Both the position numbers and the translations under genes were made by a program. A DNA stretch of 64,000 bases from Chryseobacterium sp. JV274. Lineage in GTDB: Bacteria; Bacteroidota; Bacteroidia; Flavobacteriales; Weeksellaceae. Below the pieces are notes generated by a model. The model did no database searches. It saw nothing but the letters and a program-made list of their open reading frames with translations, and was not told the origin of the DNA. The stretch covers positions 744,001 through 808,000 of the forward strand of contig NZ_LR824569.1 in assembly GCF_903969135.1 (NCBI RefSeq), in the 5' to 3' direction. Shown here piece after piece: positions 4,255-48,456 of the stretch (the first letter of the stretch is position 1; every line of letters begins with the position of its first letter).

Positions 4255-4255
4255 C

Positions 4256-5174: not shown

Positions 5175-5200
5175 TTTTTTAGTAGCTTTGAATTATTCTG

Positions 5201-5208: not shown

Positions 5209-5250
5209 CTAATTATTTTCATCATAAGGATACAACCGCTCTACAACGAG

Positions 5251-5279
5251 AAAAGCAGAACAATTTTTGTCCTGCTTTT
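5251..5279 (-). terminator. Terminator of gene 5307-5969
   Basis: AAAAGCAGAACA and TGTCCTGCTTTT pair (one G-T wobble on the minus strand) around a 5-nt loop. On the minus strand the stem leads into TTTT. Confidence 0.75.
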
Positions 5280-5306
5280 TATTATTTCTAAATAAGATTT
5301 TCAGAA

Positions 5307-30687: not shown

Positions 30688-30770
30688 AAATATCTTGCGT
30701 TTTTTATTGAGTTTATTGTTTTGTTCTTAGTGTTCACCGCTACTTTAAAACATTCTTTATTTTTATTGTA

Positions 30771-32177: not shown

Positions 32178-32180
32178 TCT

Positions 32181-34130
32181 TTATCTCTTGTGTTTAATTC
32201 TGTGTAATTTATACTTTTTATCTTTCTTCTGTCTTAAAATAATTCCTGCCAAGGGCGGTAGTTTTACAGTCATTGATTTCGGGTATCCCCGCCATTCTTC
32301 ATGCTTCTCTTCCAGTATTTCAGGTTCTACTCCGCTTCCGCTGTATTTTTCATCATCAGAATTTAAAACAACCTCCCAATGAGTTCCTGCAGGAATCCCT
32401 ATTTTATAATCCAGTACTTTTGGTGCCAGGTTCAAAGCTACCATAGCCACATCATCTTTCCGTTTTCCTTTTCTCAGGTATATATACACTGAGTTTTCCA
32501 GATCATCTGCTTCTACCCATTCAAAACCATGTTTATCAAACTGGTTTTCATAAAAGGCAGAGTCTGATGTATACAGGTGATTCAGTTCCTTAACGATTTC
32601 CTGCATTCCTTTATGAACAGGATATTTCAGCAAATGCCAGTCCAGGCTTCTGGTAAAGTTCCATTCACTGGTCTGCCCGAATTCATCCCCCATGAAAAGC
32701 AGTTTGGCTCCGGGATGGGTATACATATATACATATAAGGCCCGCAGATTGGCAAATTTCTGCCATTCGTCCCCTTTCATTTTATAGATCAGACTTGCTT
32801 TTCCGTGTACCACTTCATCGTGTGACAAAGGCATCATATAATTTTCATTATACATATACATAGAAGCAAACGTCAGTTTATGGTGATGGAATTTACGGTT
32901 AGGAAAATCTTCTTTAAAATAATCCAGCGTATCATGCATCCAGCCCATCATCCATTTCATTCCAAAGCCTACACCTCCGTCATGAACAGGTTTTGTAAGC
33001 ATGGGAAAATCTGAGCTTTCCTCTGCTATGGTCATTATATTATTTCCGAATTCCTTATACACTGCAGTATTAAATTCCTGCAGAAATGTTTTCGCTTCCA
33101 GATTTACATTGGTTCCATAGATGTTCGGTTCCCATTCGCCCTCATTTCTTGAATAATCCAGATGCAGCATTGAAGTTACGGCATCTACACGCAATCCATC
33201 AGCATGGTAGCGGTCCAGCCAGAACATGGCATTAGAGATCAGAAAAGATTTCACTTCATTTCTCCCGTAGTTGAAAATATGTGACTTCCAATCAGGATGA
33301 AAACCTTTTCTCGGATCTTCATGTTCATAAAGATAGGAACCGTCGAAGCGGTGAAGACCATTAGCATCTCCGGGAAAATGAGACGGAACCCAATCCAGAA
33401 TAACGCCTATATTATTTTTATGAAGTTCATCAATGAGAAACATCAGATCCTGTGGTGAACCGAAGCGTGAAGTCGCCGCGTAAAAACCGGTAATCTGATA
33501 TCCCCAGCTTGGATCGTACGGATACTCCATTACAGGCATGAACTCTACGTGGGTAAACCCCATTTCTCTGATATAAGGGACCAGCTTTTCTGCAATATCC
33601 CGGTAATTTAAAAACTGTCCAGGATTATCACCTTCCCTCACCCATGAGCCAAGGTGCAGTTCATACACTGATATAGGAGCTTCCAGCCTGTTTTTTTCCC
33701 AGCGGCTATCCATCCATTCCTTGTCATTCCATTCATACCAGGTGGTGGAAACCAAAGAAGCTGCCTGAATATTCTGTTCCCAGCTTACCGCATAAGGATC
33801 GCTTTTTTCCAGAATCTCGCCTCTTGGTGTTTCAATGGCATATTTATATAATGTTCCCCAGGTTAAGCCTTCAATAAATCCTTCCCAAATTCCAGATCCG
33901 TCCCATCTTGGAAACAAAATGTGATCTTTATGATTCCAGTTATTAAAATTTCCAATAACGGAAACTTTCTTTGCATTGGGTGCCCACACTGAAAAGTACA
34001 CGCCCTTCACGCCATCTTTTTCAGCAGAATGTGCTCCAAATTTACCATACAGCTTATAATGTCTACCTTCTTTGAAAAGATACACATCATGATCGGTGAA
34101 AAGCGTGTAGGTTTTAACAGAATTCATCAA
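32181..34130 (-). CDS. glgB: 1,4-alpha-glucan branching enzyme
   Basis: A 649-residue GH13 branching enzyme that creates alpha-1,6 branches in glycogen. The N-terminal CBM48 module (about 25-115) has YFSVWAPNAKKVSVIGNFNNW. The catalytic barrel has DGLRVDAV (nucleophile D316), TIAEES (acid/base E370) and LSHDEV (435-440, transition-state Asp). The C-terminal beta domain begins about 560. It is the first gene of the glgBAC operon. The start used is the ATG at 34130; M2 is an alternative. Confidence 0.97.
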   Translation of the reverse strand: MMNSVKTYTLFTDHDVYLFKEGRHYKLYGKFGAHSAEKDGVKGVYFSVWAPNAKKVSVIGNFNNWNHKDHILFPRWDGSGIWEGFIEGLTWGTLYKYAIETPRGEILEKSDPYAVSWEQNIQAASLVSTTWYEWNDKEWMDSRWEKNRLEAPISVYELHLGSWVREGDNPGQFLNYRDIAEKLVPYIREMGFTHVEFMPVMEYPYDPSWGYQITGFYAATSRFGSPQDLMFLIDELHKNNIGVILDWVPSHFPGDANGLHRFDGSYLYEHEDPRKGFHPDWKSHIFNYGRNEVKSFLISNAMFWLDRYHADGLRVDAVTSMLHLDYSRNEGEWEPNIYGTNVNLEAKTFLQEFNTAVYKEFGNNIMTIAEESSDFPMLTKPVHDGGVGFGMKWMMGWMHDTLDYFKEDFPNRKFHHHKLTFASMYMYNENYMMPLSHDEVVHGKASLIYKMKGDEWQKFANLRALYVYMYTHPGAKLLFMGDEFGQTSEWNFTRSLDWHLLKYPVHKGMQEIVKELNHLYTSDSAFYENQFDKHGFEWVEADDLENSVYIYLRKGKRKDDVAMVALNLAPKVLDYKIGIPAGTHWEVVLNSDDEKYSGSGVEPEILEEKHEEWRGYPKSMTVKLPPLAGIILRQKKDKKYKLHRIKHKR

Positions 34131-34327
34131 GATCAGTTTATATTTATAATTTCCCTGAAACTACGAAAAATACTGACAATAGCGATTAATTATTCATCAA
34201 ATAATTATCAATATCATTTCGTGTTTTGTCTTTCTATCAAATATATCATTTTTTACCTCACATTTTTATGATTTCAAAACAATCTTTTTTTTAAATTTAG
34301 CATCACTATTTTTATTAAACACATACG

Positions 34328-35449
34328 ATGAGGTTTGAACTTTATACAGAAGAAAAAGACGACAGACCGGTATTTATCACCGGAAATTTCAACAGCTGGA
34401 ATCCTAAAGATTACAATTTCCAGCTCCAACAAACAGATCCCTCCAATTATTTTATAGAAATTGAAGACCAGATACTTGCCGAAGAAATTGACTATAAATT
34501 CACAAAGGGAGGCTGGGAGAATGTGGAGCTGGATGAATATGGAAATATCACTCCCAACCGGAAAGTAAAAAAAGCAGCTGGCAAAACTTCGGATACTGTA
34601 AAAAAATGGAGATTAAACTGGGGACCGTTCAAAGAAGAATATTATCCCATTGCTGAAATAATTTCCGAAAATTTTTATATTCCGCAGCTTGACCGCCACC
34701 GTAAAGTTTGGGCACTGCTTCCCTACGATTATCACACAACGGATAAGCGATATCCTGTTTTATATCTTCAGGATGCCCAGAACTTATTCAATGAAGGAAG
34801 CGGCTTCGGAAACTGGGAAATTGATAAGAAGCTGTCTATCCTTGCAGAATATGGCCGTGGTGACCTTATCATCATTGCTATAGAACATGGCAGCGAGGAA
34901 AGAATTAAAGAATATATTTTCGATAATGATCATGTAGCCAATGGTTCTGAGGGAAAAAAATACATCCGTTTTATTGCAGATACTTTAAAACCTTTTGTGG
35001 ATGAAAATTACAGAACAAAAAAAGACCGTGACAATACCGGAATTGGGGGCAGCTCATTAGGGGCGCTCATCAGTATATACAGCGGATTTCTTTATCCTGA
35101 AGTGTATTCCAAATTATTGATATTCTCTCCTTCACTGTGGGTTGAGCCCAATAACAATTTCCCGATGATGAATTTCCGGGTTCCTTTTAAAACAAAAATT
35201 TATCTTTATGGAGGCGGTCAGGAAGGATCTAAAATGGTCAAAAGGATTCATATTTTTGAAGAATATCTGAAAAGATGGGAAGAGAAAAAGCTGTTTGATT
35301 TTGAGTTCAAGACCAATATCAATCCTGAGGGCACTCATAATGAATTTTACTGGTCACAGGAGTTTCCAAGGGCCATTGAATGGCTATTCTACGACAATAC
35401 TGAAAACCCTGTAGAAGTAAAACCACAACAACAAAGCATTAAAAACTAA
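34328..35449 (+). CDS. Esterase-D-family hydrolase with N-terminal CBM48-like module
   Basis: A 373-residue protein. Residues 1-80 (RPVFITGNFNSWNPKDY, DYKFTKGGWENVELDEYGN) look like a CBM48/AMPK-type glycogen-binding fold. Residues 105-355 form an alpha/beta hydrolase of the putative-esterase (esterase D/enterochelin esterase) family with the nucleophile elbow GSSLG (S243) and a late GTHNEFYW for the catalytic His. It is divergent from glgBAC. The binding module and location suggest action on or near glycogen or maltodextrin, possibly removal of acyl groups; this is inference. No signal peptide. Confidence 0.8.
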   Translation: MRFELYTEEKDDRPVFITGNFNSWNPKDYNFQLQQTDPSNYFIEIEDQILAEEIDYKFTKGGWENVELDEYGNITPNRKVKKAAGKTSDTVKKWRLNWGPFKEEYYPIAEIISENFYIPQLDRHRKVWALLPYDYHTTDKRYPVLYLQDAQNLFNEGSGFGNWEIDKKLSILAEYGRGDLIIIAIEHGSEERIKEYIFDNDHVANGSEGKKYIRFIADTLKPFVDENYRTKKDRDNTGIGGSSLGALISIYSGFLYPEVYSKLLIFSPSLWVEPNNNFPMMNFRVPFKTKIYLYGGGQEGSKMVKRIHIFEEYLKRWEEKKLFDFEFKTNINPEGTHNEFYWSQEFPRAIEWLFYDNTENPVEVKPQQQSIKN

Positions 35450-35541
35450 GCCAGCAAAATTGCTGAAGAAGATTTTCGGACAGACAAGAACAAATGAAGA
35501 CGACGATTGTCTATGATCTTAGAAAAATATAATATTTATTT

Positions 35542-36957
35542 ATGAAACTAATTAATAAAAAAAACAAAAATTACACTCAGGTCTTCCACGTATTTACAGA
35601 GGAAGAATGGACAAAATCCAGTAAAAATTTCAATAAAAACATTTCTACTTTTTTTACGGGAAAGAAGTATGAAGTTTTCATTAATGCTCATGAAGAAGGA
35701 ATTACCTATTTTATTGGATTAGGAAAATCTACGTTACAGAATTTCGAAATCCAGCAGGTTGCAGCAAAATTTTCACAAACACAGAAAGAAAAACTGCAGG
35801 CAGTGCCTACATTAGCTCTGGCAGATTTCATGAATGAAAAACAGTTTGAGGAATTTGTAAAAGGAATTTTAGCAGGAACGTACAACTATCCTTTCGATAA
35901 GAAACATGTTTTCTGGAATGTAAAATTTGAATTGCATTTTGAAAATTTAAGCCAGAAAAAACTAGATCATATCAGTCAAAAAACCGAAGCCCTTATTAAC
36001 GGGCAGACTGCCTGTCAGGACTGGCTCAACAAACCTGCCAATCTTAAAAAACCGGATATTTTAAGTGCATATCTTAAAAATCTGGCAAAAAAACATGAGT
36101 TGAAGTACACCGTTTTCAACAGAAAGAAATGTGAAGAGCTTGGATTGGGTGCTTATCTATCGGTCAATCAGGGAAGTGCTTATGATGCTGCGTTCACTAT
36201 TTTAGAATATAAAACTACGGTTAAAAATGCCAAGACTTTCGGATTGGTAGGAAAATGTATTTTGTTTGATACTGGAGGAATATCAATAAAAAGCTCTGCC
36301 AATCTGCATTATATGAAGTCTGATATGGGAGGTGCTACAGCTGTTTTGGGTACTTTAATTTATGCTGCAGAAATGCAGCTCCCTGTGAACATCATTGCTG
36401 TTCTTCCTATTACAGATAATGCTGTTTCTGAAAAAGCCCTGCTTCCGAGTGATGTGATCACAGCCTACAACGGAAAAACCATTGAAGTACTTGATACCGA
36501 TGCCGAAGGCCGTTTAATCCTTGCAGACGGATTATCTTACCTTTCCAAAAACTACAAAACAGACTTTCTGATTGACCTGGCTACTTTAACAGGAAGCTCT
36601 GTACGCATGTTTGGAGATACCTGTGCCGCGATGTTCTCCAATAATGAGGAACTGAAAAATAATCTGATAAAAACCGGAGATCAAACCAATCAGAGAGTAT
36701 GGAATCTTCCTTTATGGGATGTGTGGAAGGACGACATTCAGTCTGATGTAGCCGATATGAAAAACATCTCCTTAAAACCGATCGGAGACTGTATTATTGC
36801 AGCAAAATTCTTAGAGCAATTCATTGAAAACCATCCTAAATGGGCACATTTGGATATTGCAGGAGTAGCCTTTGGGAATGTAGGCTACGCCAAGGAAAAA
36901 GCAGCAACAGGTTATGGGGTTCAACTCCTTGTGGATTTAATTGAAAATTATCATTAA
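35542..36957 (+). CDS. Leucyl aminopeptidase family protein (M17)
   Basis: A 471-residue cytosolic metallopeptidase of family M17. The C-terminal catalytic domain has LVGKCILFDTGGISIKS, YMKSDMGGATAVLG, and the signature TDAEGRL in EVLDTDAEGRLILADGLSYL with metal ligands Asp and Glu. The N-terminal 160 residues are less conserved, as usual. The enzyme releases N-terminal residues from peptides using two metal ions. It lies 92 bp after the esterase and 141 bp before the ATP-grasp cluster. It could be a general peptide-recycling enzyme or contribute to the cluster, but it has no other link to it. Confidence 0.9.
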   Translation: MKLINKKNKNYTQVFHVFTEEEWTKSSKNFNKNISTFFTGKKYEVFINAHEEGITYFIGLGKSTLQNFEIQQVAAKFSQTQKEKLQAVPTLALADFMNEKQFEEFVKGILAGTYNYPFDKKHVFWNVKFELHFENLSQKKLDHISQKTEALINGQTACQDWLNKPANLKKPDILSAYLKNLAKKHELKYTVFNRKKCEELGLGAYLSVNQGSAYDAAFTILEYKTTVKNAKTFGLVGKCILFDTGGISIKSSANLHYMKSDMGGATAVLGTLIYAAEMQLPVNIIAVLPITDNAVSEKALLPSDVITAYNGKTIEVLDTDAEGRLILADGLSYLSKNYKTDFLIDLATLTGSSVRMFGDTCAAMFSNNEELKNNLIKTGDQTNQRVWNLPLWDVWKDDIQSDVADMKNISLKPIGDCIIAAKFLEQFIENHPKWAHLDIAGVAFGNVGYAKEKAATGYGVQLLVDLIENYH

Positions 36958-36993
36958 AAATTAGTTTTTTACAAAAAAACTCTGTATAATTGA

Positions 36994-37081
36994 TTAGTGA
37001 ATTTTCAAAAACGCACGATATTGCATTTTTTAATATTAATAAAACAATAAATAAATGCTTTTATTTTTGAAAATTCACTAA
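36994..37081. repeat. 18-bp perfect inverted repeat upstream of the ATP-grasp cluster
   Basis: TTAGTGAATTTTCAAAAA (36994-37011) is repeated as its exact inverse (37064-37081), 52 bp apart. The right arm overlaps TATTTTTG (37062-37069), an exact -7 element for the gene at 37099. An inner GCATTT/AAATGC pairing is also present. This could be an operator, a cruciform/stem at the 5' end of the message, or the ends of a tiny decayed element. Confidence 0.8.
37062..37069 (+). promoter_or_regulatory. -7 element of the ATP-grasp cluster
   Basis: TATTTTTG fits TAnnTTTG exactly, 29 bp before the ATG at 37099, inside the right arm of the inverted repeat. No TTTG is seen at -33, so an activator or another factor might be needed. 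Confidence 0.5.
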
Positions 37082-37098
37082 AAATTAAAAAACATTAT

Positions 37099-38313
37099 AT
37101 GGAGAAGAAAACTATTGTGTGTATTTCGTGCTATTACAAAGGCTACGATTTTATGGACGAAATGAAGAATCTCGGCAATAAAATCATCTTAGTAACCTCA
37201 GAAAATCTTAAGGAAAAAAACTGGCCCTGGCATGCAATTGATGAGGTATTTTATATGCCGGAACTCAAGCCGTCTGTATGGAATCTGGAGCATCTGATTC
37301 AGGGATTTTCCCACCTGATGAAAACCAGAAAAGTAGATGCTGTAGTAGCATTGGATGATTATGACGTAGAAAAAGCGGCATTAATCAGGGAAACATTCCG
37401 TATTCCGGGAATGGGACAGACTACACACCGGTATTTCAGGGATAAACTGGCTATGCGCCAAAAAGCAAAAGATTCAGAGATCAGCGTTCCCGAATTTACA
37501 CCTGTATTCAATGATCATGAAGTCAATGAATTTACAGACCATGTTCCTGCACCATGGGTACTGAAACCCCGCTCTGAAGCTTCAGCATCAGGAATCAAGA
37601 AAATAACTTCCAAGGAACAACTTTATGAGGCACTGGAGACACTGGGAGAAGAACGTCATCTTTTTTTACTGGAAAGTTTTAAGCCCGGAGACGTTTACCA
37701 TGTGGACAGCCTTACTTTTAATAAAAAAATTGTATTTACTTCTGCCTCAAAATACCTTGCTCCTCCTATGCAGGTTTCCCATGAAGGCGGAGTATTCAGA
37801 TCTAAGACTTTAGGAAGATATTCCGAGGAGTTTAAGGCATTGGAAGAAATTAATGCCCGAGTTCTTTCCAATTTCGGATTGATCAATGGTGCCACCCATA
37901 CAGAATTTATCCAAGGAAAAGAAGATGGAAAATGGTATTTTCTTGAAACCTCATCAAGGGTTGGCGGTGCTCATATTCCGGACCTGGTAGAGGCCTCAAG
38001 CGGTATTAATATCTGGAGAGAATGGGCTAAAATTGAAGATGCACTTCTGAGAAGAAATGATTACAGTATTTCACCACCTACAGGATATTACTCAGGGCTT
38101 ATTGTTGCGCTGATTAAAGATAAGGAACCGGATTACAGTAATTTTGAATGTGAAGAAGTTGTAAAATTCCTTCCGATAGATTATCATGTCGGGATTGTTT
38201 ACAAATCCGGAGATGCCTCCATTGTGCAGGACAGACTGGATTCTGCTGCAGATATGATTCATGCAGATATGCTGAACATTCTGCCTCCAAAAGGCAACAA
38301 ACTGAGTTCCTAA
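37099..38313 (+). CDS. ATP-grasp ligase (first of the cluster)
   Basis: A 404-residue ATP-grasp carboxylate-amine ligase of the carnosine-synthase/BL00235-like type. The N-terminal preATP-grasp domain (about 1-110) has a Rossmann-like start KTIVCISCYYKG. ATP-binding is by VLKPRSEASASGI (154-166). Metal binding is by THTEF (266-270) and ETSSRVGG (283-290). The C-terminal 80 residues form a small extra domain. It would activate a carboxylate as acyl phosphate and join it to an amine. Substrates unknown. First gene of the cluster. Confidence 0.88.
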   Translation: MEKKTIVCISCYYKGYDFMDEMKNLGNKIILVTSENLKEKNWPWHAIDEVFYMPELKPSVWNLEHLIQGFSHLMKTRKVDAVVALDDYDVEKAALIRETFRIPGMGQTTHRYFRDKLAMRQKAKDSEISVPEFTPVFNDHEVNEFTDHVPAPWVLKPRSEASASGIKKITSKEQLYEALETLGEERHLFLLESFKPGDVYHVDSLTFNKKIVFTSASKYLAPPMQVSHEGGVFRSKTLGRYSEEFKALEEINARVLSNFGLINGATHTEFIQGKEDGKWYFLETSSRVGGAHIPDLVEASSGINIWREWAKIEDALLRRNDYSISPPTGYYSGLIVALIKDKEPDYSNFECEEVVKFLPIDYHVGIVYKSGDASIVQDRLDSAADMIHADMLNILPPKGNKLSS

Positions 38314-38317
38314 AAAT

Positions 38318-38541
38318 AAAGAGTAACATTGATATTCAAAATGTTATTGAATTCATAATATATAATCTGCCGGAAGATTCCATACTAAAATGTAATTTAG
38401 AGAGTATAAGTTCTGGAAAATGGCAAGACATATTATCAGTTCGTTGACTCAACTTTTAGAAAAAAGATCAGCCTGGAGGAATTGAATTTATCAAATAGAA
38501 GTACAGTATTAAAATTAAACAAGGAAAAATGCCTCATATAG
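38318..38541 (+). pseudogene. Possible remnant of a small gene
   Basis: Between two cluster genes, one frame reads protein-like without stops to 38447 (LPEDSILKCNLESISSGK and on). A second frame, from about 38410, continues protein-like to a stop at 38539-38541 (TYYQFVDSTFRKKISLEEL and on), overlapping the next start. A single indel could join them. There is no obvious start codon. Weak evidence; it may be ordinary spacer. Confidence 0.2.
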
Positions 38542-39242
38542 AACATACAGAATATTATTCAAATATATTGGGAACAAGTCTCAAGGTAGAAGTGACCGGG
38601 CATTACGGCCACCCTATTATTATGTTTCCTACTTCCCAGGGACAATACACTCAAAATCATGATTTTCATCTTAACGGAAGTATCAACTGGTTTATAGAAC
38701 AGGGAAAAGTAAAGCTTTACAATGTTCAGACCATTGACAGCTGGAGTTTTTATGATGACAAAATATCTCCTCAGCAAAGAATAAGAAATTATGAACGGTA
38801 TGTACAGTTTCTGATCAAGGAATTTGTTCCCTATATTCAGAAACTTCATAAAACCCATCGCGTAGCAGTAGCCGGAGCAAGTTTTGGAGGCTATCACGCT
38901 GCCAATTTTGCTTTCAGATTTCCTGATGTGGTTTCTCATCTGTTTTGCCTTTCCGGAGCGTTCAGCATAAGAAATTTCATGGATGGCTATTCTGATGAAA
39001 TCGTATATTTCAACTGCCCCAGAGAATTTGTAAGAAATGATGAAGCCTGGAAATACAAACACATGCATATTGTACTCAGTACTTCTGATCAGGATATCTG
39101 CAAAGAAAAAAATGTTGAAATGTCAGAAATTTTAAGGCTGAAAGGAATCGATTTCTGGTATGACGAAAGAAAATGGATAGGGCACGACTGGCCACTGTGG
39201 AGAATGGTCTTCCCAACCTTTATAGGAACATTTTTCTCTTAA
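38529..39242 (+). CDS. Esterase-family alpha/beta hydrolase
   Basis: A 237-residue alpha/beta hydrolase of the putative-esterase family. The oxyanion region is HPIIMFPTSQGQYTQN. The nucleophile elbow is G-A-S-F-G (116-120, S118) in AVAGASFGGYHAANFAFRFP. A late His is in WIGHDWPLWR. It has no signal peptide, so it is cytosolic. Within the ATP-grasp cluster it could hydrolyse an ester or thioester intermediate, act as an acyl transferase, or proofread products. It lies 58 bp before the second ATP-grasp gene. Confidence 0.88.
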   Translation: MPHIEHTEYYSNILGTSLKVEVTGHYGHPIIMFPTSQGQYTQNHDFHLNGSINWFIEQGKVKLYNVQTIDSWSFYDDKISPQQRIRNYERYVQFLIKEFVPYIQKLHKTHRVAVAGASFGGYHAANFAFRFPDVVSHLFCLSGAFSIRNFMDGYSDEIVYFNCPREFVRNDEAWKYKHMHIVLSTSDQDICKEKNVEMSEILRLKGIDFWYDERKWIGHDWPLWRMVFPTFIGTFFS

Positions 39243-39299
39243 ACACAATAAAAAAGACAAATAGAAAAAAATATACACCCATCTTAAAAAACAAAAATT

Positions 39300-40253
39300 A
39301 TGACAAAAAAAGTAGGAATTCTTTTCGGTATGGAAGACACGTTTCCCTGGGCATTTATAGATAAAGTGAATGAACTGGGAGGTGGAGATATCATAGCTGA
39401 ACCCGTTACCATCGATAAATTAGAACAGGGTGCAGATTATGGGTATGCGGTAATCATCGACAGAATTTCACAGGACGTTCCCTTTTACAGAGCATACCTG
39501 AAAAATGCCGCACTCAATGGCACTTATGTAATCAACAATCCGTTTTGGTGGAGTTCTGATGAGAAGTTTTTCAACAATGCCCTGATGTCTAAACTGGGAA
39601 TCCCACTTCCTAAGACTGTTCTGCTTCCGTCACACGAAAGGCCAGACAACACTTCTGAAACTTCATTCAGAAACCTGAAATTTCCACACGACTGGGAATA
39701 TATCTTTAATTATGTAGGATTTCCGGCATACATGAAACCTCACGACGGCGGTGGCTGGAAAAATGTATACAGAGTAGAAAATCCGGATGACCTTTGGAAC
39801 AAATTAGGCGAAACGGAACAGCTGGTGATGATGGTACAGGAAGAAATAATCTTTGATGATTATTACAGAGTGTACTGTTTGGGCAGAAAATATGTTCACA
39901 TCATGCCTTACGAACCAAGAAATGCACCTCATCTGAGATATGCTACTACGCACCAGACAGAAGGTAAAGAACTTGAAAAACTACTGAAAACTATTCATGA
40001 TTATACCATTACCATGAATGAAGCATTAGGATATGATTTCAATACGGTAGAATTTGCAGTGAGAGACGGTATTCCTTATGCAATTGATTTTTGCAACCCG
40101 GCTCCGGATGCAGACCGAAATTCTGTAGGAGAAGAAAATTTTGCATGGATTATAGAACATGCTGCAAAACTGGCTATAGAAAAAGCTAAAGAATATGTTC
40201 CTGGGAAACCTAATATTACTTGGGGAACCTTTGTGAAAGATTCCATAAAATAA
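39300..40253 (+). CDS. ATP-grasp ligase (second of the cluster)
   Basis: A 317-residue RimK-like ATP-grasp protein. The N-terminal domain starts KKVGILFGMEDTFPWAFIDKVN. ATP contacts come from PAYMKPHDGGGWKNVYRV (142-159, phosphate-binding loop). MMVQEEI is the adenine-binding hinge. NTVEFAVRDGIPYAIDFCNPAPD (248-270) holds the metal-binding Glu, Asp and Asn. It is compact and lacks extra domains. It would form an amide bond between unidentified carboxylate and amine substrates. The next gene follows after 30 bp. Confidence 0.9.
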   Translation: MTKKVGILFGMEDTFPWAFIDKVNELGGGDIIAEPVTIDKLEQGADYGYAVIIDRISQDVPFYRAYLKNAALNGTYVINNPFWWSSDEKFFNNALMSKLGIPLPKTVLLPSHERPDNTSETSFRNLKFPHDWEYIFNYVGFPAYMKPHDGGGWKNVYRVENPDDLWNKLGETEQLVMMVQEEIIFDDYYRVYCLGRKYVHIMPYEPRNAPHLRYATTHQTEGKELEKLLKTIHDYTITMNEALGYDFNTVEFAVRDGIPYAIDFCNPAPDADRNSVGEENFAWIIEHAAKLAIEKAKEYVPGKPNITWGTFVKDSIK

Positions 40254-40283
40254 CATTGAAAAGAAATAAAAAACACAAAAAAA

Positions 40284-41405
40284 ATGCATCATCAGTTTAC
40301 TATTGGAATTGAAGAAGAATATCAGATCATTGATGTAGAAAGCAGAGATCTGGTTTCTCACGTTTCAAAAATCATCGAAGGCGGCAAAGCGGTTTTAAGT
40401 GAAAATTTAAAACACGAAATGCACGAATCTATGATTGAAATGGAAACAGGGATCTGCCAGAATATTCAGGAAGCCAGAGCAGAATTGACGAATTTAAGAC
40501 GTCATCTTATCAACATCGCTCATGAACAGGGGCTGCGCGTTTCCGGAGGAGGTACTCACCCATTCTCTCATTGGTCAGATAACAATATCACACAGGGAGA
40601 AAGATACATCAAAATCGTGGACGACATGGGAGATGTAGCCCGTGAAAACCTTATTTTCGGACTGCATGTCCACATTGGAATTCCTAATCGTGAAGAAGGG
40701 GTAAGAATTCAGAATGTAATGCGTTACTTTCTTCCTCACGTGTATGCTCTTTCTACCAATTCGCCATTCTGGATTGGAAGATACACCGGATTTAAATCTT
40801 ACAGACAGGAAATCTTTGTGAAATTCCCGAGAACCGGTATCCCAAGTTATTTTAACTCTCTGGCAGAATTCGACAGTTATGTAGATCTTCTTGTGAAAAC
40901 AGGAACCATCGACAATGCCAAGAAAATATGGTGGGATTTACGTGTTCATCCGTTCTACCCTACGATTGAATTCAGAATTTGTGATATGCCACTGAGAATT
41001 GATGAAACGGTATGTCTTGCTGCCATTATGCAATGCCTTGTTGCTAAAATCTATAAACTTCATCAGCAAAATCTGAGCTTCAGAAGTTATAGAAGACTGC
41101 TGTTGAACGAAAATAAATGGCGTGCTTCCAAAAGCGGTATTGAAGCCCATCTGATCGATTTCGGAAAAGAAGAATCTGTTCCTTATCCTCATTTATTGAA
41201 AGAACTTTTAGAGTTTATTGATGATGTGGTAGACGATTTGGGATGCCGCCATGAAGTGGAATATGCCTGGAAAATTCTGGAAAACGGAACCGGCGCAGAC
41301 AGGCAGCTTCAGATCTTTAAGGAAACAGGGGATCTCACGAAAGTTGTTGATTATATGATCTCTGAAACAGAGTATGGCATAACACATGGTGAAACTGCTT
41401 CATAA
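40284..41405 (+). CDS. Carboxylate-amine ligase, YbdK/GCS2 family
   Basis: A 373-residue member of the glutamate-cysteine-ligase-2 (COG2170, YbdK) family, which has a glutamine-synthetase-like fold. It starts FTIGIEEEYQII with GIEEE (8-12), and has SGGGTHPFSHW (87-97) and HVHIGIPN, providing the metal- and ATP-binding acids and histidines. YbdK itself has weak gamma-glutamyl-cysteine ligase activity. In this cluster it probably joins a carboxylate, perhaps glutamate, to an amine. Length is normal. The GATase gene follows after 33 bp. Confidence 0.93.
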   Translation: MHHQFTIGIEEEYQIIDVESRDLVSHVSKIIEGGKAVLSENLKHEMHESMIEMETGICQNIQEARAELTNLRRHLINIAHEQGLRVSGGGTHPFSHWSDNNITQGERYIKIVDDMGDVARENLIFGLHVHIGIPNREEGVRIQNVMRYFLPHVYALSTNSPFWIGRYTGFKSYRQEIFVKFPRTGIPSYFNSLAEFDSYVDLLVKTGTIDNAKKIWWDLRVHPFYPTIEFRICDMPLRIDETVCLAAIMQCLVAKIYKLHQQNLSFRSYRRLLLNENKWRASKSGIEAHLIDFGKEESVPYPHLLKELLEFIDDVVDDLGCRHEVEYAWKILENGTGADRQLQIFKETGDLTKVVDYMISETEYGITHGETAS

Positions 41406-41438
41406 TATTTTTGGTAACTTTACAAAAAATATGATGTA

Positions 41439-42272
41439 ATGAAAGATATTCGAATTGCTCTGCTGGACATGAACAACAATCATGTGAATCAAGGTTTTAG
41501 AAACATTAAAGAAATTTCTGAAGCATTTCAGCAGAACTCTGAAGAAAATGTTGTCATCAAGACATTTGATGTGAGATTTAAAGATGAAATGCCGGAGATC
41601 GGAGATTTTGATATTTTCATTTCTTCAGGCGGTCCTGGAAATCCACATCGTGAAGGTTTTGCCTGGGAAGACAGATTTGCCCATTTTTTAGATTCTGTTT
41701 TTGAGCATAATAAATATAGTGAAGATAAAAAATACCTTTTCCTTATCTGCCATTCATTCCAGCTGGCAAGTATTCATTGGAACCTTGGTAATATCTGTAA
41801 AAGAAAGTCTTATTCCTTTGGAGTAATGCCTGTTCATAAAACAGATGAAGGCAAAGAAGAGTTTTTATTCAAAAATCTTCAGGATCCTTTTTATGCCGTA
41901 GATTCAAGAGCGTACCAGTTTATAGAGCCGGATCATGACCGTTTTGAAGAACTTGGGATGACTATCATGGCGATTGAGAAGTTCCGTCCTCATATCAATC
42001 TGGAAAGAGCGGTAATGGCGGTTCGCTTTTCAGAAGAAATATTCGGAACACAGTTTCATCCTGAAGCTAATCCTGAATCTTTGATCGAAAATCTGAAAGA
42101 TGAAAAAAACAGAGAAGCTATGATCGAAAATTTCGGTATGGAGAAATATCTTGAAACGATCGACAGAATAGACGATGAGGATAAAATCATTCTGACCAGA
42201 CATCAGATCCTTCCGAGATTCCTTCAGTTTGCAAAAAAAAACATTTTGAAAGAAGCTGAGACTTTGGCTTAA
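41439..42272 (+). CDS. Class I glutamine amidotransferase-like protein
   Basis: A 277-residue GATase-I fold protein. The triad is present: Cys104 in FLICHSFQLA, and His207 and Glu209 in GTQFHPEANPESL. The oxyanion-type loop ISSGGPGNP is at 61-69. The elbow is unusual: the two glycines of the standard GxCxGxQ are Leu and Ser here. It may release ammonia from glutamine or, like gamma-glutamyl hydrolases and PuuD, cleave a gamma-glutamyl bond made by the neighbouring ligase. A C-terminal helix-rich extension of about 60 residues follows the domain. Confidence 0.85.
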   Translation: MKDIRIALLDMNNNHVNQGFRNIKEISEAFQQNSEENVVIKTFDVRFKDEMPEIGDFDIFISSGGPGNPHREGFAWEDRFAHFLDSVFEHNKYSEDKKYLFLICHSFQLASIHWNLGNICKRKSYSFGVMPVHKTDEGKEEFLFKNLQDPFYAVDSRAYQFIEPDHDRFEELGMTIMAIEKFRPHINLERAVMAVRFSEEIFGTQFHPEANPESLIENLKDEKNREAMIENFGMEKYLETIDRIDDEDKIILTRHQILPRFLQFAKKNILKEAETLA

Positions 42273-42405
42273 AAGGCAGGAAGATGGAAGAAGGATGCTG
42301 GAAGTTATTTTCAGTTAAGACTACTGAAAATGCTTTTATTCATGAACTGATAGTCTAAATATTTTCATAGTTAAGAACTTCCCTCTCCCAGCTTCCAACT
42401 CCTTA
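42273..42405. repeat. Decayed inverted-repeat element D
   Basis: The left arm AAGGCAGGAAGATGGAAG and the inverse of the right arm (AAGGAGTTGGAAGCTGGG) match imperfectly. An internal perfect 9-bp hairpin, ATTTTCAGT/ACTGAAAAT, follows the left arm. It is inserted between the GATase gene and the last gene of the cluster. Confidence 0.6.
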
Positions 42406-42428
42406 CTATATATAACAATCGGGCAGAA

Positions 42429-43643
42429 ATGTTCGATTTTTTAACATCACAAAAGAAAAAAAATATGATTCCAAAATACAGAAAACAGTACAATAAGGAG
42501 TTTTCGGATGAAAAGTACAATCAATTAAAAAATATACTGGCAGAAAAAGGAGGTACAGCACCTACTTTCAGGGTTTCAGAAAGCCCTATTTTTTTGACTA
42601 AAGAATTTGAGAGTAAGCTTATTGATGCCAGCGAAAGTATTATCAGCCAGATTAAGGCAATATCTGCTGAAACACTTCGGAAAGCCGTTCCTGATAACTG
42701 CAGAGTTCCCAATGATACGGATCAGCCTCATTTTTTCACGATAGATTTTGGAGTCTGCAAAAGCGAAAACGGAGCGATAGAACCTCAGCTAATAGAACTT
42801 CAGGCGTTTCCTTCTTTGTATGCTTTTCAGAAAGTGTATGAAGAAACTTATTGTGAAGTTTACCCTTTTCTTTCGGAAATCAGAAATCCTATGCCTCATG
42901 AAACCTTTAAAAACTATTTGAAGGAGCTTATTGTAGGTGAGGAAAATCCTGAAAATGTAATCCTGCTTGAAATCTTCCCTGAAAAACAAAAAACAGCCAT
43001 TGATTTTGTTTTAACAGAGCAATTATTAGGAATAAAAACAGTGTGTCTGACCAAAGTAAAGAAAGAAGGCAAAAAACTGTATTATGAAAACAATGGAAAT
43101 CTGGTAGAAATCAAAAGAATTTACAACCGTATTATATTCGACGAGTTGGATAATATTCCGGATCTTAATACAGAATTTGATTTCCGTGAAGAAGTAGATG
43201 TTAAATGGATCACTCACCCCAATTGGTTCTTTAAAATTTCAAAATTTCTTTTGCCTTTATTAAAACATCAGTTTGTTCCAAAGAGTTATTTTCTACATGA
43301 ATTTCCGGAAAATGAAAATCTTGAAGACTTTGTATTGAAGCCTTTATTTTCATTCGCAGGAAGTGGTGTTAATTTAAATCCTACGAAGGAAATTACAGAC
43401 GCTATTCAGGATAAGGAAAATTATATTTTACAGAGAAAAGTGTATTATGAGCCCATTTTTGAAGATATCAACGGAGAATTTTCAAAAGCAGAGATCCGTT
43501 TGTTGTATATTTGGCGGGAAAATGACGAACGCCCTATTTTATTGGAAAATCTTGGGAGAATGACTAAAGCCGCAATGGTAAATGTTGATTTCAATAAAAA
43601 GGATGCCATCTGGATCGGAAGTTCGAATGCATTTTTTGGATAA
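42429..43643 (+). CDS. ATP-grasp-like protein, possibly circularly permuted
   Basis: A 404-residue soluble protein without a firm family name. The C-terminal part has ATP-grasp-like ATP-binding segments: FVLKPLFSFAGSGVNL (301-316), YILQRKVYYEPIFED (332-346) and AEIRLLYIWRENDERPILL. The N-terminal half has FTIDFGVC and IEPQLIELQAFPSL (about 117-130), which resembles a metal-binding strand that normally follows the ATP loop. That order is what a circularly permuted ATP-grasp would show. It is the last gene of the amidoligase cluster, separated from the GATase by a repeat element. M13 is an alternative start. Confidence 0.7.
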   Translation: MFDFLTSQKKKNMIPKYRKQYNKEFSDEKYNQLKNILAEKGGTAPTFRVSESPIFLTKEFESKLIDASESIISQIKAISAETLRKAVPDNCRVPNDTDQPHFFTIDFGVCKSENGAIEPQLIELQAFPSLYAFQKVYEETYCEVYPFLSEIRNPMPHETFKNYLKELIVGEENPENVILLEIFPEKQKTAIDFVLTEQLLGIKTVCLTKVKKEGKKLYYENNGNLVEIKRIYNRIIFDELDNIPDLNTEFDFREEVDVKWITHPNWFFKISKFLLPLLKHQFVPKSYFLHEFPENENLEDFVLKPLFSFAGSGVNLNPTKEITDAIQDKENYILQRKVYYEPIFEDINGEFSKAEIRLLYIWRENDERPILLENLGRMTKAAMVNVDFNKKDAIWIGSSNAFFG

Positions 43644-43664
43644 AAAATTTAAAACTAATAATAC

Positions 43665-44123
43665 ATGGAAGAAAAGTCGACTGCTTTTGCAGAATTTGAC
43701 AACAGCGGTTTAACACGAAGAAGAAACTTATTACCCGTGTGGATTAAAATTTTCTTATGGATCTTTTTAATCGGAGGCGCAGTATCTGCTATTTTATTGA
43801 TTGCAGGTTCTCTGCTGACTCATGTTTCCTTATCGATATATGGGATCAATGCTAATCATCCTTATTCAATGACGGGGCTTTTGATCAGCTTTTTGTTTCT
43901 GTTCAAAGGTATTGTTGCTTACGGACTCTGGTTTGAACAAAAATGGGCAGTACAGACTGCAATAGTTGATGCAATCATAGGAATTGCCATTTGTCTCATT
44001 ATGATGGCAATTATCCCATTTACTGTTCCAACGATCAGCTTTACCCTTAGATTAGAACTCATTCCTTTGTATTTCTATCTGATGAAAATGCAGAACATAA
44101 AGAAAACCTGGGAAAGCTTATAA
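43665..44123 (+). CDS. Small four-helix membrane protein
   Basis: A 152-residue protein with a short polar start and four hydrophobic segments (about 27-50, 62-82, 92-120 and 124-140), ending in MKMQNIKKTWESL. No motif is recognised. It begins 21 bp after the ATP-grasp-like gene and ends before a terminator, so it may be the last gene of the cluster's transcript. Transport of a cluster product is conceivable, but four helices and no family match do not support it. Confidence 0.7.
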   Translation: MEEKSTAFAEFDNSGLTRRRNLLPVWIKIFLWIFLIGGAVSAILLIAGSLLTHVSLSIYGINANHPYSMTGLLISFLFLFKGIVAYGLWFEQKWAVQTAIVDAIIGIAICLIMMAIIPFTVPTISFTLRLELIPLYFYLMKMQNIKKTWESL

Positions 44124-44127
44124 AAAC

Positions 44128-44151
44128 AAACCTCCGATATTTCGGAGGTTT
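44128..44151. terminator. Bidirectional terminator before cphA
   Basis: AAACCTCCGA and TCGGAGGTTT form a perfect 10-bp stem around TATT, with A- and T-runs on both sides. It serves the plus-strand cluster and the converging cphA. Confidence 0.9.
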
Positions 44152-44164
44152 TATTTTTTTAATA

Positions 44165-46795
44165 CTAAATATTCTTATTGTCTTCCAGCAACTCTTTGGC
44201 CTGGTATTCCTGTACCAAATCAATAGCATTGGAAATAACATCACTTAAAGCTGTGATAAACGTTCCTTCTTCAGCCATTCCCATAGCATGTTTTAATGCT
44301 TCGATTTCTTTAGGGATAATCTCATAGCTGACATCTCTGCCTGCAGCATTAATACCATCAATAATCAACCCGTTAATTTCATCTTCCGTTCTTCCTCGAA
44401 GATGTTTTTCATTCCGGATGATAATATAATCAAACATTCTTCCCGCAATCTTTCCGCATTCTCTGATATCGTTATCTCTTCTGTCTCCAACACCGGATAT
44501 AATTCCAATTTTCTTTGTAGACTCTACATTTTTAAGATAATCTTCAATGGCTTCGTATCCTGAAGGATTATGAGCAAAATCGATCAGTACTTTAAAGTTT
44601 TTAAATTTAAAGACATTCAATCTTCCCGGCGTAAGCTGAGCACTTGGAATAAAAGTTCTCAAAGAATTAGAGATATCTTCAATTCCAAACCCATAAAGAT
44701 AACTTGCCAAACTAGCCGCCAATACGTTTTCAATCATAAATCGGGCTTTTCCTTCCATCGTAATCGGGAAATCTTTTGCTTTTCCTATTCTGATCTTCCA
44801 GTCTCCTTTTTTAATAGTGACGAATCCTTCTTCATACACGCAGGTGATCTTTCCTTCTTTCGCAAATTTTACAATATGAGGGTTATTTTCATCCATACTG
44901 AAGATTGCCACATTAGAATCAAGGTCATTCACGATCTTCATAGAATATATGTTATCGGCATTCAGTACACTCCAGCCACTCTTCTTAACACTGTCCATTA
45001 CGACACGTTTTACTTTGGTAAGATCTCTTAAGCTGTGAACATCATTCATTCCCAGATGATCTTCCTCAATATTGGTAAGAACCCCGATATCACATTGTGA
45101 AAAGCCAAGTCCGGAACGTAAAATTCCTCCTCTGGCAGTTTCCAGTACTGCAAATTCTACGGTTGGGTCTTTCAAGATAAATTCTGCAGAAAGCGGACCT
45201 GTTGTATCTCCTTTTGACAACATCGTATTTTGAATGTAAATTCCGTCCGACGTTGTGAATCCTACTCTGTATCCATTGCTTTTTACAATATGTGAAATAA
45301 GTCTTGTAGTTGTTGTTTTCCCGTTAGTTCCTGTCACGGCAATAATTGGAATGGTAAAAGGTTTCCCTTGCGGATAAAGCATATCTACCACCGGTGCGGC
45401 AACATTTCTTGGCAGTCCTTCACTTGGAGCCAGGTGCATTCTGAACCCAGGAGCTGCATTGACTTCAATAATAGCTCCGCCACTTTCTTTTAAAGGCTGA
45501 GTTAAATTCTCCGCCATCACATCAATACCGCATACATCCAATCCGATAATTTTGGAAATTCTTTCCGCCATTGTGATATTTTCCGGATGCACCATATCTG
45601 TTACATCAATGGATGTTCCTCCGGTTGAAAGATTCGCCGTTGATTTCAGATAGACCACTTCTCCCCTTTGAGGAATGGTTTCCAGCGTATATTGAAGCTT
45701 TTCAAGAAGTTCCAGTGTATCTTTATCTACTTCAATCTCAGTAAGGACATTTTCATGACCATAACCTCTTCTTGGGTCTTTGTTTTCTTTTTCAATAAGC
45801 TGCTGAAGATTCAGTTCACCGTCTCCTACAACATGAGCAGGAACTCTTCTTGCTGCCGCCACCATCTTATTATTAATCACCAGTATACGAAAATCGTAAC
45901 CTGTGATATATTTTTCAACAATTACTTTTCTGGAATATTTTTGGGCATGTTCCAGGCCTATTTTAGCAGATTCCCATTCGTTGACATTAATGGAAGAACC
46001 TTTTCCATGATTTCCATCCAAAGGTTTTAAAACAATCGGATAACCAATTTTTCTGATCACCGCGTTTAATCCTTCTTCGTCTACAACCAAATCACCAATC
46101 GGCACCGGAATAGCAGCGTCATGAAGCATTCTTTTGGTTAATTCTTTATTACATGCAATATCAACGGCAATGGAACTTGTTTTTCCGGTAATGGTAGCCT
46201 GAAATCTTTGCTGATTTACGCCATAACCTAGCTGTACCAGAGAATTTGTTCCCAATCTGATCCAAGGAATTCTTCTGGAAGCAGCTTCTTCTACAATACT
46301 TCCTGTAGAAGGCCCAAGACGGACACGTTCTCGGATTTCTTTTAATTTATGAATACAGGTATTTAAATCATAATTCTTCCCTTCTATCAGGGCTTCTGCA
46401 ATCTTCATAGCTTCTTCAGCAGCGTAGATTCCCGCATTTTCTTCAATATAATTGAAAACCACATTATACACTCCAGGAGTTTTTGTTTCCCGGGTTCTTC
46501 CAAACCCCACATCCATTCCTGCCAGGGTCTGTATTTCCAAAGCGATATGCTCTATAACATGCCCCATCCAGGTTCCTGTTTCCACTCTATGAAAAAAACC
46601 ACCTTCCACTCCTTCCGAGCATCGATGGGTAATCAATGAGGGTATTAATTTTTCAATCCTTTCCCTGAATCCTTCGATTTTATTGGTAGGATAATTCTCC
46701 ATTTCTTCTAAGTCTAACCTCATCTGTATCAGCTTCTTTCTTCTGATGCTCCAGATGTTTGGACCGCGTAGTGCCTGAATCTTTTCGATTTTCAT
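44165..46795 (-). CDS. cphA: Cyanophycin synthetase
   Basis: An 876-residue enzyme that builds the arginine/aspartate polymer cyanophycin. The N-terminal region (about 1-160) has HRCSEGVEGGFFHRV and GHVIEHIALEIQTLAG. The ATP-grasp domain (about 215-480) contains VLKPLDGNHGKG (255-266) and IIEVNAAPGFRMH (442-454), which add aspartate. The Mur-ligase-like domain (about 481-876) contains GTNGKTTTT (489-497), which adds arginine. The size is that of the cyanobacterial enzyme. It is divergent from cphB across 199 bp. It acts in the cytoplasm and gives cells a nitrogen reserve. Confidence 0.97.
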   Translation of the reverse strand: MKIEKIQALRGPNIWSIRRKKLIQMRLDLEEMENYPTNKIEGFRERIEKLIPSLITHRCSEGVEGGFFHRVETGTWMGHVIEHIALEIQTLAGMDVGFGRTRETKTPGVYNVVFNYIEENAGIYAAEEAMKIAEALIEGKNYDLNTCIHKLKEIRERVRLGPSTGSIVEEAASRRIPWIRLGTNSLVQLGYGVNQQRFQATITGKTSSIAVDIACNKELTKRMLHDAAIPVPIGDLVVDEEGLNAVIRKIGYPIVLKPLDGNHGKGSSINVNEWESAKIGLEHAQKYSRKVIVEKYITGYDFRILVINNKMVAAARRVPAHVVGDGELNLQQLIEKENKDPRRGYGHENVLTEIEVDKDTLELLEKLQYTLETIPQRGEVVYLKSTANLSTGGTSIDVTDMVHPENITMAERISKIIGLDVCGIDVMAENLTQPLKESGGAIIEVNAAPGFRMHLAPSEGLPRNVAAPVVDMLYPQGKPFTIPIIAVTGTNGKTTTTRLISHIVKSNGYRVGFTTSDGIYIQNTMLSKGDTTGPLSAEFILKDPTVEFAVLETARGGILRSGLGFSQCDIGVLTNIEEDHLGMNDVHSLRDLTKVKRVVMDSVKKSGWSVLNADNIYSMKIVNDLDSNVAIFSMDENNPHIVKFAKEGKITCVYEEGFVTIKKGDWKIRIGKAKDFPITMEGKARFMIENVLAASLASYLYGFGIEDISNSLRTFIPSAQLTPGRLNVFKFKNFKVLIDFAHNPSGYEAIEDYLKNVESTKKIGIISGVGDRRDNDIRECGKIAGRMFDYIIIRNEKHLRGRTEDEINGLIIDGINAAGRDVSYEIIPKEIEALKHAMGMAEEGTFITALSDVISNAIDLVQEYQAKELLEDNKNI

Positions 46796-46839
46796 AGTCT
46801 ATTGGCATTTTAACAGTTAACAATAACTCCTTTCATAGC

Positions 46840-46847
46840 CAAAGATA
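46840..46847 (-). promoter_or_regulatory. -7 element for cphA
   Basis: Minus-strand TATCTTTG, an exact TAnnTTTG match 44 bp before the cphA start. Confidence 0.55.
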
Positions 46848-46945
46848 ATGTAAAACCCAAAACAAAACCATAGCAAATTTAAAGATTTGTTAAAAAACAA
46901 TTAATTTCAATTAACATTCTTAAAACATTAAAAATCAATTAAAGA

Positions 46946-46960
46946 TGGCACGAATTTCGC
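46946..46960 (+). promoter_or_regulatory. Sigma-54-like promoter for cphB
   Basis: TGGCACGAATTTCGC matches the -24/-12 consensus TGGCACG-N4-TTGC at all but one base. It keeps the required GG (46947-46948) and GC (46959-46960) ten bases apart. The expected start near 46972 would give a leader of about 23 nt before the cphB ATG. The match is by eye; a TAATTTTG at 46982-46989 is a less suitable alternative. Confidence 0.65.
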
Positions 46961-46994
46961 CAAAGAATGTTAATTATTTTTTAATTTTGTACCC

Positions 46995-47885
46995 ATGACG
47001 AAGCCTGTTGGAAAATTAATAGTTATCGGAGGAGCTGTAAACAAAGGAAGTTTTGCAGAAACCGATTATGATCAGAATATCGAAAAGAATCTTAATTTTT
47101 TTGAACGTGGGATCTTAAGGAAGATCATCAACGAATCAAAACTCAAGGAAGATTCTGTTATTGAAATTGTAACAACCGCCTCTCAAATACCTCAGATCGT
47201 AGGTTCTGAATACAAAAAGGCATTTGAATTTCTGGGTGCTAAAAATGTAAATGTTCTGGATATTCACAACCGTGAAGAAGCCAACTCTGATGCGATGGTA
47301 GCAAGAGCCAATGCTGCTGATGTCATGATGTTTACCGGAGGAGATCAGTTGAGACTGACTTCTATTCTTGGAGGAACAAGATTTCATGATACAATTCTAT
47401 TAAAATATCAGGAACAGGATTTCATCTATTCCGGAACTTCTGCGGGAGCTGCAGCGGCATCCGAGAATATGATCTACCAGGGAAGCAGTTCTGAAGCACT
47501 TTTAAAAGGAGAAATCAAAACCACCCAGGGATTAGGTTTGATTGATAATGTTATTATTGATACACACTTTGTACAGCGTGGCAGAATCGGTCGTCTTTTC
47601 CAGGCCGTAGTCAACAATCCGAGAACACTGGGAATAGGACTTGGAGAAGATACAGGGCTTTTCATCCATAATGATGTGATGACAGCTGTAGGTTCAGGTC
47701 TTGTAATTCTGGTAGACGGAAGATTTATTAAAGATACCAATCTTACGAATATCAATCTTGGTGAGCCTATTTCTATTGATAATTTAACGGTACATGTTAT
47801 GTCTATGAATGATCACTATGATCTTACCACGAAGAAATTAACTATTGAGAATTCTCAGTTTAATCCGATACCGCAGGATAAATAA
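46995..47885 (+). CDS. cphB: Cyanophycinase
   Basis: A 296-residue serine exopeptidase of family S51 that cuts cyanophycin into beta-Asp-Arg dipeptides. It has KLIVIGGA near the start, MMFTGGDQLRL (111-121) and the nucleophile elbow YSGTSAGAAA with Ser149, followed by IDTHFVQRGRIGRL, all diagnostic. Length is slightly longer than the classical enzyme of about 270 residues. It lies divergent from cphA and 39 bp before the next gene, with which it probably forms an operon ending in the isoaspartyl peptidase. Confidence 0.97.
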   Translation: MTKPVGKLIVIGGAVNKGSFAETDYDQNIEKNLNFFERGILRKIINESKLKEDSVIEIVTTASQIPQIVGSEYKKAFEFLGAKNVNVLDIHNREEANSDAMVARANAADVMMFTGGDQLRLTSILGGTRFHDTILLKYQEQDFIYSGTSAGAAAASENMIYQGSSSEALLKGEIKTTQGLGLIDNVIIDTHFVQRGRIGRLFQAVVNNPRTLGIGLGEDTGLFIHNDVMTAVGSGLVILVDGRFIKDTNLTNINLGEPISIDNLTVHVMSMNDHYDLTTKKLTIENSQFNPIPQDK

Positions 47886-47924
47886 CTCAAAAGTAATTCT
47901 TAATTTAGTTGAAAATAAAACTAA

Positions 47925-48422: not shown

Positions 48423-48456
48423 AGAAATTAACAATAAAAAAAACTAAACTTTATTT

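Follow-up and report, generated by a model that had tools for sequence, protein, structure and literature searches.

We describe a conserved gene set in Chryseobacterium sp. JV274 that, in our reading, encodes a carrier-free pathway in which successive amide-bond ligations yield a small peptide-like conjugate, while hydrolases trim or recycle the product; we give this reading a probability of roughly one half. The set lies in a 64,000-nucleotide stretch of contig NZ_LR824569.1 (positions 744,001 to 808,000), which as a whole is called the window here. Its core unit, at window positions 38529-43643, runs from the hydrolase ABH to the ligase AG3, and AG1 upstream is a looser member. That ligation is successive and leads to a small conjugate with recycling we consider likely. 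An earlier note on this DNA, made from the sequence alone, had proposed a small amide-linked metabolite as the product, and this is still the simplest guess; taken as a whole, the interpretation offered there is partly supported by what follows. The six genes are:

37099-38313, plus strand: AG1, an accessory ATP-grasp ligase related to L-amino acid ligases (PF13535, ATP-grasp_4)
38529-39242, plus strand: ABH, a core alpha/beta hydrolase of the esterase type (PF00756, Esterase, 4.3e-9)
39300-40253, plus strand: AG2, an inner-core ligase, predicted to be a classical ATP-grasp of the RimK/Ddl fold group
40284-41405, plus strand: YbdK, a core GCS2-fold carboxylate-amine ligase that is missing at some loci (NF010039, PF04107)
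41439-42272, plus strand: GAT, a core protein of the class I glutamine amidotransferase (GATase) fold (PF00117)
42465-43643 (open reading frame from 42429), plus strand: AG3, an inner-core ligase, predicted to be a circularly permuted ATP-grasp of the glutathione synthetase/YgiC/GspS fold

All six open reading frames (ORFs) are intact and co-directional, as the earlier note had it, with intergenic distances of 215, 57, 30, 33 and 156 nt in gene order from AG1 to AG3. The start of AG3 is probably at 42465, which is Met13 of the ORF opening at 42429, because homologues are mostly 392-394 amino acids (aa) long among the 120 matches listed and a Met stands there in the aligned rows, where it opens 32 of the 33 other rows of the AG3 alignment.

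The gene order is kept far beyond the genus. A scan for AG2 over one-per-species genomes confirmed at least 592 relatives, and the loci were analysed with family profiles on all six frames, allowing other ORFs between core genes. Among the best 80 of these at least 592, many of them from Chryseobacterium, 64 loci are fully flanked, and 61 of the 64 have ABH, AG2, YbdK, GAT and AG3 in this order on one strand. The other three keep ABH, AG2 and YbdK (two loci) or ABH, AG2, GAT and AG3 (one locus). Hosts of the kept loci include Chryseobacterium, Elizabethkingia, Maribacter, Dyadobacter, Runella, Cyclobacteriaceae and Saprospiraceae. The check for the same order in other Bacteroidetes that the earlier note had called for thus shows a conserved arrangement.

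We also hand-picked 40 further loci, mostly distant (L121-L160, where L156 is the same DNA as L062), from 86 AG2-positive genomes. Of the 34 fully flanked loci in this wider set, nine have AG2 followed by CPAG, another permuted ATP-grasp, and GAT (six of them with ABH), three have AG2, YbdK and AG3, three have the full core and four have other partial sets. Wherever strand was compared, the partners lie on that of AG2 (GAT 83/83, AG3 82/82, YbdK 87/87). When the AG2 proteins are sorted into 55 clades (51 clusters at 80% identity plus four unassigned loci), AG3 or CPAG is within reach of AG2 in 36, ABH precedes AG2 in 32 and GAT is within reach in 30. In a first survey, AG3 was present in all 24 genomes of the window's genus, its own genome included. 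AG2 gave no plasmid match, and among the 120 matches listed for a distant AG2, one is named candidate division KSB1.

Co-occurrence reaches beyond linkage. In a sample of 247 genomes of the phylum, we found AG2 in 86 and AG3 in 73 (both at E<=0.001), GAT in 59 (E<=1e-30) and cyanophycin synthetase, CphA, in 30 (E<=1e-100). AG2 and AG3 occur together in 70 genomes versus 25.4 expected, AG2 and GAT in 58 versus 20.5, and AG3 and GAT in 46 versus 17.4. In 28 of the 70 AG2-AG3 genomes and 17 of the 58 AG2-GAT genomes, the partners either sit on separate contigs or are over 10 kb from each other; four of the 28 have AG2 and AG3 on a single contig, with 202 kb to 3.2 Mb between them. Breaks between draft contigs may lie behind some of these separations.

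A second permuted ligase accounts for most genomes that have AG2 and lack AG3. There are 16 such genomes, and 13 of them have GAT; in all 10 of these 13 that were fetched, CPAG sits between AG2 and GAT. The CPAG profile was built from seven of the ten genomes, so that three matches are independent. In a family scan of three CPAG proteins, those of L128 and L131 pass the PF14403 cut-off and that of L124 falls just under it (31.6 versus 32); the protein of L128 is similar (6.5e-7) to 3n6x, which is a putative glutathionylspermidine synthase. In the remaining three genomes (G045, G123 and G196), the AG2 matches have just 32-40% identity and may not be orthologues. AG2 with a permuted ATP-grasp is the most persistent part of the set. 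The Fisher p values for co-occurrence take no account of shared ancestry, but adjacency by itself would hardly explain the unlinked cases or the use of two alternative permuted ligases at a single position. Because gene order persists from family to family, and because AG2, AG3 and GAT are found together even when they are not adjacent, the gene set is more than a group of chance neighbours. This bears out the proposal of the earlier note that the locus unites several ligases, which form amide bonds and differ in fold, with a GATase-fold protein and a hydrolase.

The identities of ABH, YbdK, GAT and AG1 come from sequence. YbdK exceeds the NF010039 cut-off (537.6 versus 371 bits) and that of PF04107 (221.5 versus 21), and its nearest PDB sequences are 1tt4/1r8g. 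GAT scores 37.8 bits for PF00117 against a gathering cut-off of 22.8, and its putative triad C104, H207 and E209 is invariant in 31 alignment rows. The class I nucleophile elbow has the motif G-x-C-x-G, whereas GAT reads L-I-C-H-S-F-Q and departs from this pattern; S106, which takes the place of the second glycine, is invariant in the same rows. AG1 is closest in the PDB to the L-amino acid ligase 4wd3 (2.9e-15), with 3vot at 2.2e-7. In ABH, the putative catalytic residues S118, D189, D212 and H219 are conserved among 82 sequences.

The two inner ligases were placed by structure models. Neither AG2 nor AG3 matches a Pfam family at E<=0.001. As single sequences, AG2 and GAT have no PDB sequence match at E<=0.1. 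AG2 stays below the RimK family cut-off (TIGR00768, rimK_fam, 29.6 versus 143.4 bits), with weak RimK/LysX matches; its profile finds a D-Ala-D-Ala ligase as best PDB match, weakly (5.9e-4), and Ddl-type dipeptide ligases rank first in Foldseek and the profile search. On the basis of its model, we assign AG2 to the peptide-ligase ATP-grasp fold of the RimK/Ddl group. AG3 has no NCBIfam match either in the profile scan of locus proteins, and a PDB sequence search gives weak similarity to YgiC. Its modelled fold agrees over the full length with the permuted ATP-grasp of YgiC, GspS and glutathione synthetase: the protein (392-404 aa) aligns end to end with GspS residues 205-617 and lacks a fused N-terminal amidase domain. 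Identity to these structural relatives is 9-17% (15% for YgiC). What the earlier note had called an odd ATP-grasp-like protein is thus an ATP-grasp, now narrowed by modelling to the circularly permuted glutathione-synthetase/YgiC type, which brings the predicted ligases of the locus to four.

In many lineages, AG2 has a variable lysine/alanine-rich C-terminal tail that the window's protein and its Chryseobacterium relatives lack (examples are L045:9001-10323, L055:8923-10365 and L090:8998-10377). By a strict rule, the tail is found on 27 of 117 AG2 proteins in 11 of 51 clades, compared with none among 472 other proteins of the cluster and 3 among 949 other ORFs. Ideas for its role are binding or serving as acceptor. 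The end of the L090 tail looks, by eye, like a helix-hairpin-helix domain.

From these folds we infer the following steps, substrates and direction. YbdK would activate a carboxylate, perhaps the gamma-carboxylate of glutamate, and couple it to an amine or amino acid, and AG2 would attach a further amino acid. AG3 would activate the carboxyl of the resulting short (iso)peptide and cap it with an amino acid, amine or polyamine; a cap made specifically of an amine or polyamine, by analogy with its structural relatives, is a tentative proposal. GAT may cleave a gamma-glutamyl or amide bond or deliver ammonia, serine hydrolases and peptidases would give the parts back, and AG1, where present, may provide dipeptides. 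We read the ligations as successive because of descriptions of related enzymes. According to passages of PMC12568646, Cp1B joins an acid to an amino acid and YgiC/YjfC are peptidylpolyamine synthetases; a passage of PMC4431377 that refers to Iyer 2009 states that different ATP-grasp and COOH-NH2 ligases encoded in the same operon often carry out ligations one after the other.

Several observations weigh against a pathway of this kind. AG2 stands alone in 15 of the 34 fully flanked loci of the wider set, so that much of the set is dispensable, and in the first survey none of the 15 genomes from other families of the same order had AG3. AG3 occurs without AG2 in G180, G190 and G255, and GAT is missing from 27 of the 73 AG3 genomes. 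G190 (L194:1-14000) has a YbdK-GAT-AG3 block with neither AG2 nor ABH and is the sole one of the 59 GAT genomes without an AG2 match. Sharing an operon is no proof that enzymes act in sequence. The acceptor of AG2 may be of the RimK or of the Ddl type. An amine as the cap added by AG3 is suggested by structural likeness at 9-17% identity, and the nspC score in the window's genome (47.5 versus 409 bits) neither favours nor excludes an amine acceptor.

Two further genes upstream of the cluster are accessory:

34328-35449, plus strand: Est0, a second PF00756 esterase (3.8e-23)
35542-36957, plus strand: LAP, a peptidase of the M17 leucyl-aminopeptidase type that travels with AG1 (PF00883, 7.1e-106)

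S243 and H337 of Est0 are conserved among 34 sequences of seven clades. AG1 is within 8.5 kb of AG2 in 6 of the 55 clades; among these six, an M17 aminopeptidase is near in five and a second esterase in four by profile, plus L129 by Pfam. AG1 lies upstream in the group of the window. It is downstream in L079, L087, L128 and L129, where it shares the strand of AG2, and also in L081 and L157, where it is on the opposite one. LAP is near AG2 in 5 of 55 clades in varying arrangements, and a second esterase-profile match in 18 of 55, two of them weak; Pfam places the esterases of L129 and L130 in PF00756. L128 and L129 share the layout AG2-CPAG-GAT-esterase-AG1 with an opposite-strand neighbour, which in L128 is Asparaginase_2 by scan, and L139 has an M29-type peptidase between YbdK and AG3. 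Peptidase-type neighbours therefore occur in different lineages (M17 in the window, M29 in L139, Asparaginase_2 in L128). In 13 loci of five clades, AG2 is followed at a distance of 4.4-5.3 kb by a cluster of ArgD-like aminotransferases (12/12 on the same strand), directly after AG3 in maps such as those of L054, L074 and L083; the one protein scanned (L071) is ArgD-like and below the argD cut-off.

Besides counting in favour of the pathway proposed above, these neighbours bear on a route for using amines or unusual amino acids by gamma-glutamylation, as in the Puu pathway. YbdK would attach glutamate and GAT remove it, as PuuD does, while the aminotransferase and peptidases finish degradation. 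The adjacency of a GATase-fold cysteine hydrolase to a GCS2 ligase fits such a route, as do the aminotransferase near AG3 in five clades and the peptidase-type neighbours. However, no amine oxidase or aldehyde dehydrogenase was recognised in the 45 most recurrent neighbour clusters, few of which were scanned against families, and the persistence of AG2 with a permuted ATP-grasp is left unexplained. We consider this route unlikely.

The ligases could instead make a short peptide whose carboxyl is amidated with ammonia from GAT and which the aminopeptidase degrades, giving a dipeptide-amide compatible solute like NAGGN. We regard this as rather improbable, even though ligases, a GATase-fold protein and an aminopeptidase occur together and GAT retains a complete Cys-His-Glu triad. 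The NAGGN ligase is a GNAT/ATP-grasp fusion, whereas the nine proteins scanned gave no GNAT or class II amidotransferase match. More than a third of AG3 genomes (the 27 of 73 above) lack GAT, and several host genera of the kept loci are, we presume, not marine.

A third possibility is that AG2, with its lysine-rich tail in many lineages, and AG3 add residues to a protein or peptide and not to a small molecule. We hold protein modification to be improbable, since the window's AG2 has no tail and Ddl-type dipeptide ligases lead its Foldseek and profile matches. Nor did an acceptor emerge nearby: among gap ORFs of 20-79 aa with an ATG start in 120 loci, no cluster reaches beyond 5 of the 55 clades. 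The largest cluster is part of the aminotransferase gene, and the top ones include fragments of longer genes, while among the most recurrent clusters of neighbours of at least 80 aa no general acceptor candidate was recognised.

The earlier note had taken the adjoining cyanophycin genes as a hint of nitrogen storage or of redox/stress metabolism:

44165-49299: cyanophycin region with cyanophycin synthetase (CphA, minus strand), cyanophycinase (CphB), a 165-aa protein and an isoaspartyl-peptidase-like gene below its family cut-off

For the ligases, a link to cyanophycin is not borne out. CphA is beside the cluster only in Chryseobacterium/Halpernia loci and same-genus genomes, as judged from the fetched flanks, and 16 of the 30 CphA genomes lack AG2. 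By Fisher p values, which ignore shared ancestry, CphA shows no clear association with AG2 (14 genomes versus 10.4 expected, p 0.11) or AG3 (13 versus 8.9, p 0.063). A cyanophycin link for AG2 and AG3 is thus supported neither by adjacency nor by co-occurrence in the 247 genomes. Joint nitrogen storage is very improbable, despite the CphA, CphB and isoaspartyl-peptidase-like genes next to the cluster, the Asparaginase_2 protein flanking it in L128, and a GAT-CphA association (14 genomes versus 7.2 expected, p 0.003, likewise uncorrected for phylogeny). Finally, accidental neighbours with independent functions are scarcely credible: parts of the set are found separately in several families, but the order is kept in 61 of 64 loci, co-occurrence persists without linkage and a different permuted ATP-grasp is present where AG3 is missing.

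Some further observations concern the surroundings of these genes. In ten same-genus genomes, AG3 has a second, weak match with 31-38% identity across some 80 residues, one of them at G004:C1:318313-318582 and the others at nine comparable positions. These matches fall within open frames of 376-406 aa, which perhaps encode another permuted ATP-grasp. Just before AG3, 7 of 20 loci (L161-L164, L166, L167 and L173) have an ORF that looks like an amidohydrolase by eye (L161:5957-7426, L163:8931-10388, L173:6002-7468); AG3 is unlinked to AG2 there. A 397-aa ORF, M24 peptidase-like by eye, is near GAT in 4 of 14 loci (L182, L183, L184 and L188). Histidine ammonia-lyase, HutH, lies beside AG2 in five loci of four clades by clustering, and above cut-off just downstream of AG2 in L137:9101-10642 and L154:9089-10531, where AG2 is apart from AG3.

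In the window, a small putative membrane protein is encoded at 43665-44123, 21 nt past AG3, with similar matches in few close relatives only. Three minus-strand ORFs at 29419-34130, glycogen-like by eye, adjoin the cluster, and at the distant locus L131:9724-12443 starch-synthase-type and GlgC-type genes do so by family scan. Four neighbouring minus-strand ORFs of 218-220 aa at 2092-5969 are possibly a tandem paralogous family. We found no sigma-54-like pattern on either strand of 34000-44200 and no TTG-N17-23-TAnnTTTG pattern on the plus strand of 34101-44200.

About a third of the sampled phylum genomes (86/247) carry AG2, 70 of them also AG3 and 10 more CPAG. That the gene set is so persistent, and usually present in one copy, suggests a metabolite that is broadly useful to these bacteria. 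For biochemical work, AG2 and AG3 are an obvious minimal pair; the ligases could also serve amide synthesis.

Multi-ligase neighbourhoods are a known kind. This layout is apparently new: we recognised no paper on the cluster from the titles and abstract beginnings listed, a comparison that did not take in the 2009 amidoligase survey. The gene set resembles the multi-amidoligase neighbourhoods of Iyer et al. 2009 in that distinct ATP-grasp and COOH-NH2 ligases are operon-linked, as a passage of PMC4431377 describes them. From RimK/LysX/ArgX and D-Ala-D-Ala ligase it is set apart by the low rimK_fam score of AG2. YgiC/YjfC, which are peptide-spermidine ligases according to PMC12568646 and its reference list, share a fold with AG3 at 15% identity. 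Pathways of the E-64 type, which pair the ATP-grasp Cp1B with the ANL-type Cp1D, are mainly fungal and have a second ligase of another fold, and neither YbdK nor a GATase appears in those passages.

There is also a likeness to the glutathione, glutathionylspermidine and trypanothione system (GCS, GSS and GspS-amidase). Here the ligases are separate and the GATase-fold protein is free, unlike the amidase-synthetase fusion of that system, and AG3 lacks a Pfam match. The host, too, differs: its genome has the bacillithiol gene BshC above cut-off and no GshB above cut-off, the sole weak stretch (22.2 versus 299 bits) lying inside CphA. Glutathione itself, made by YbdK with AG2/AG3, is a conceivable product that we do not favour. 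Both sets nevertheless combine a GCS-fold ligase, a glutathione-synthetase-fold ligase and a cysteine hydrolase, and AG3 is predicted to have the GspS/GSS fold. The inner pair of AG2 and a permuted ATP-grasp persists to such a degree that its second position is taken by one or the other of two permuted ligases, depending on the family. As a more speculative proposal, which we think doubtful, Bacteroidota and their Rhodothermota kin may have a low-molecular-weight peptide conjugate system, not described before, that is the functional counterpart of glutathionylspermidine and trypanothione. Three ligases, one of the GCS fold, one classical ATP-grasp and one permuted ATP-grasp, would assemble the conjugate, and a cysteine hydrolase of the GATase fold, dedicated to this task, would take it apart. 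In a bolder variant of this proposal, the lysine-rich tail of AG2, where present, would itself be the acceptor. Overall, the successive ligations we favour would work like the cycle from glutathione to glutathionylspermidine, without being that system.

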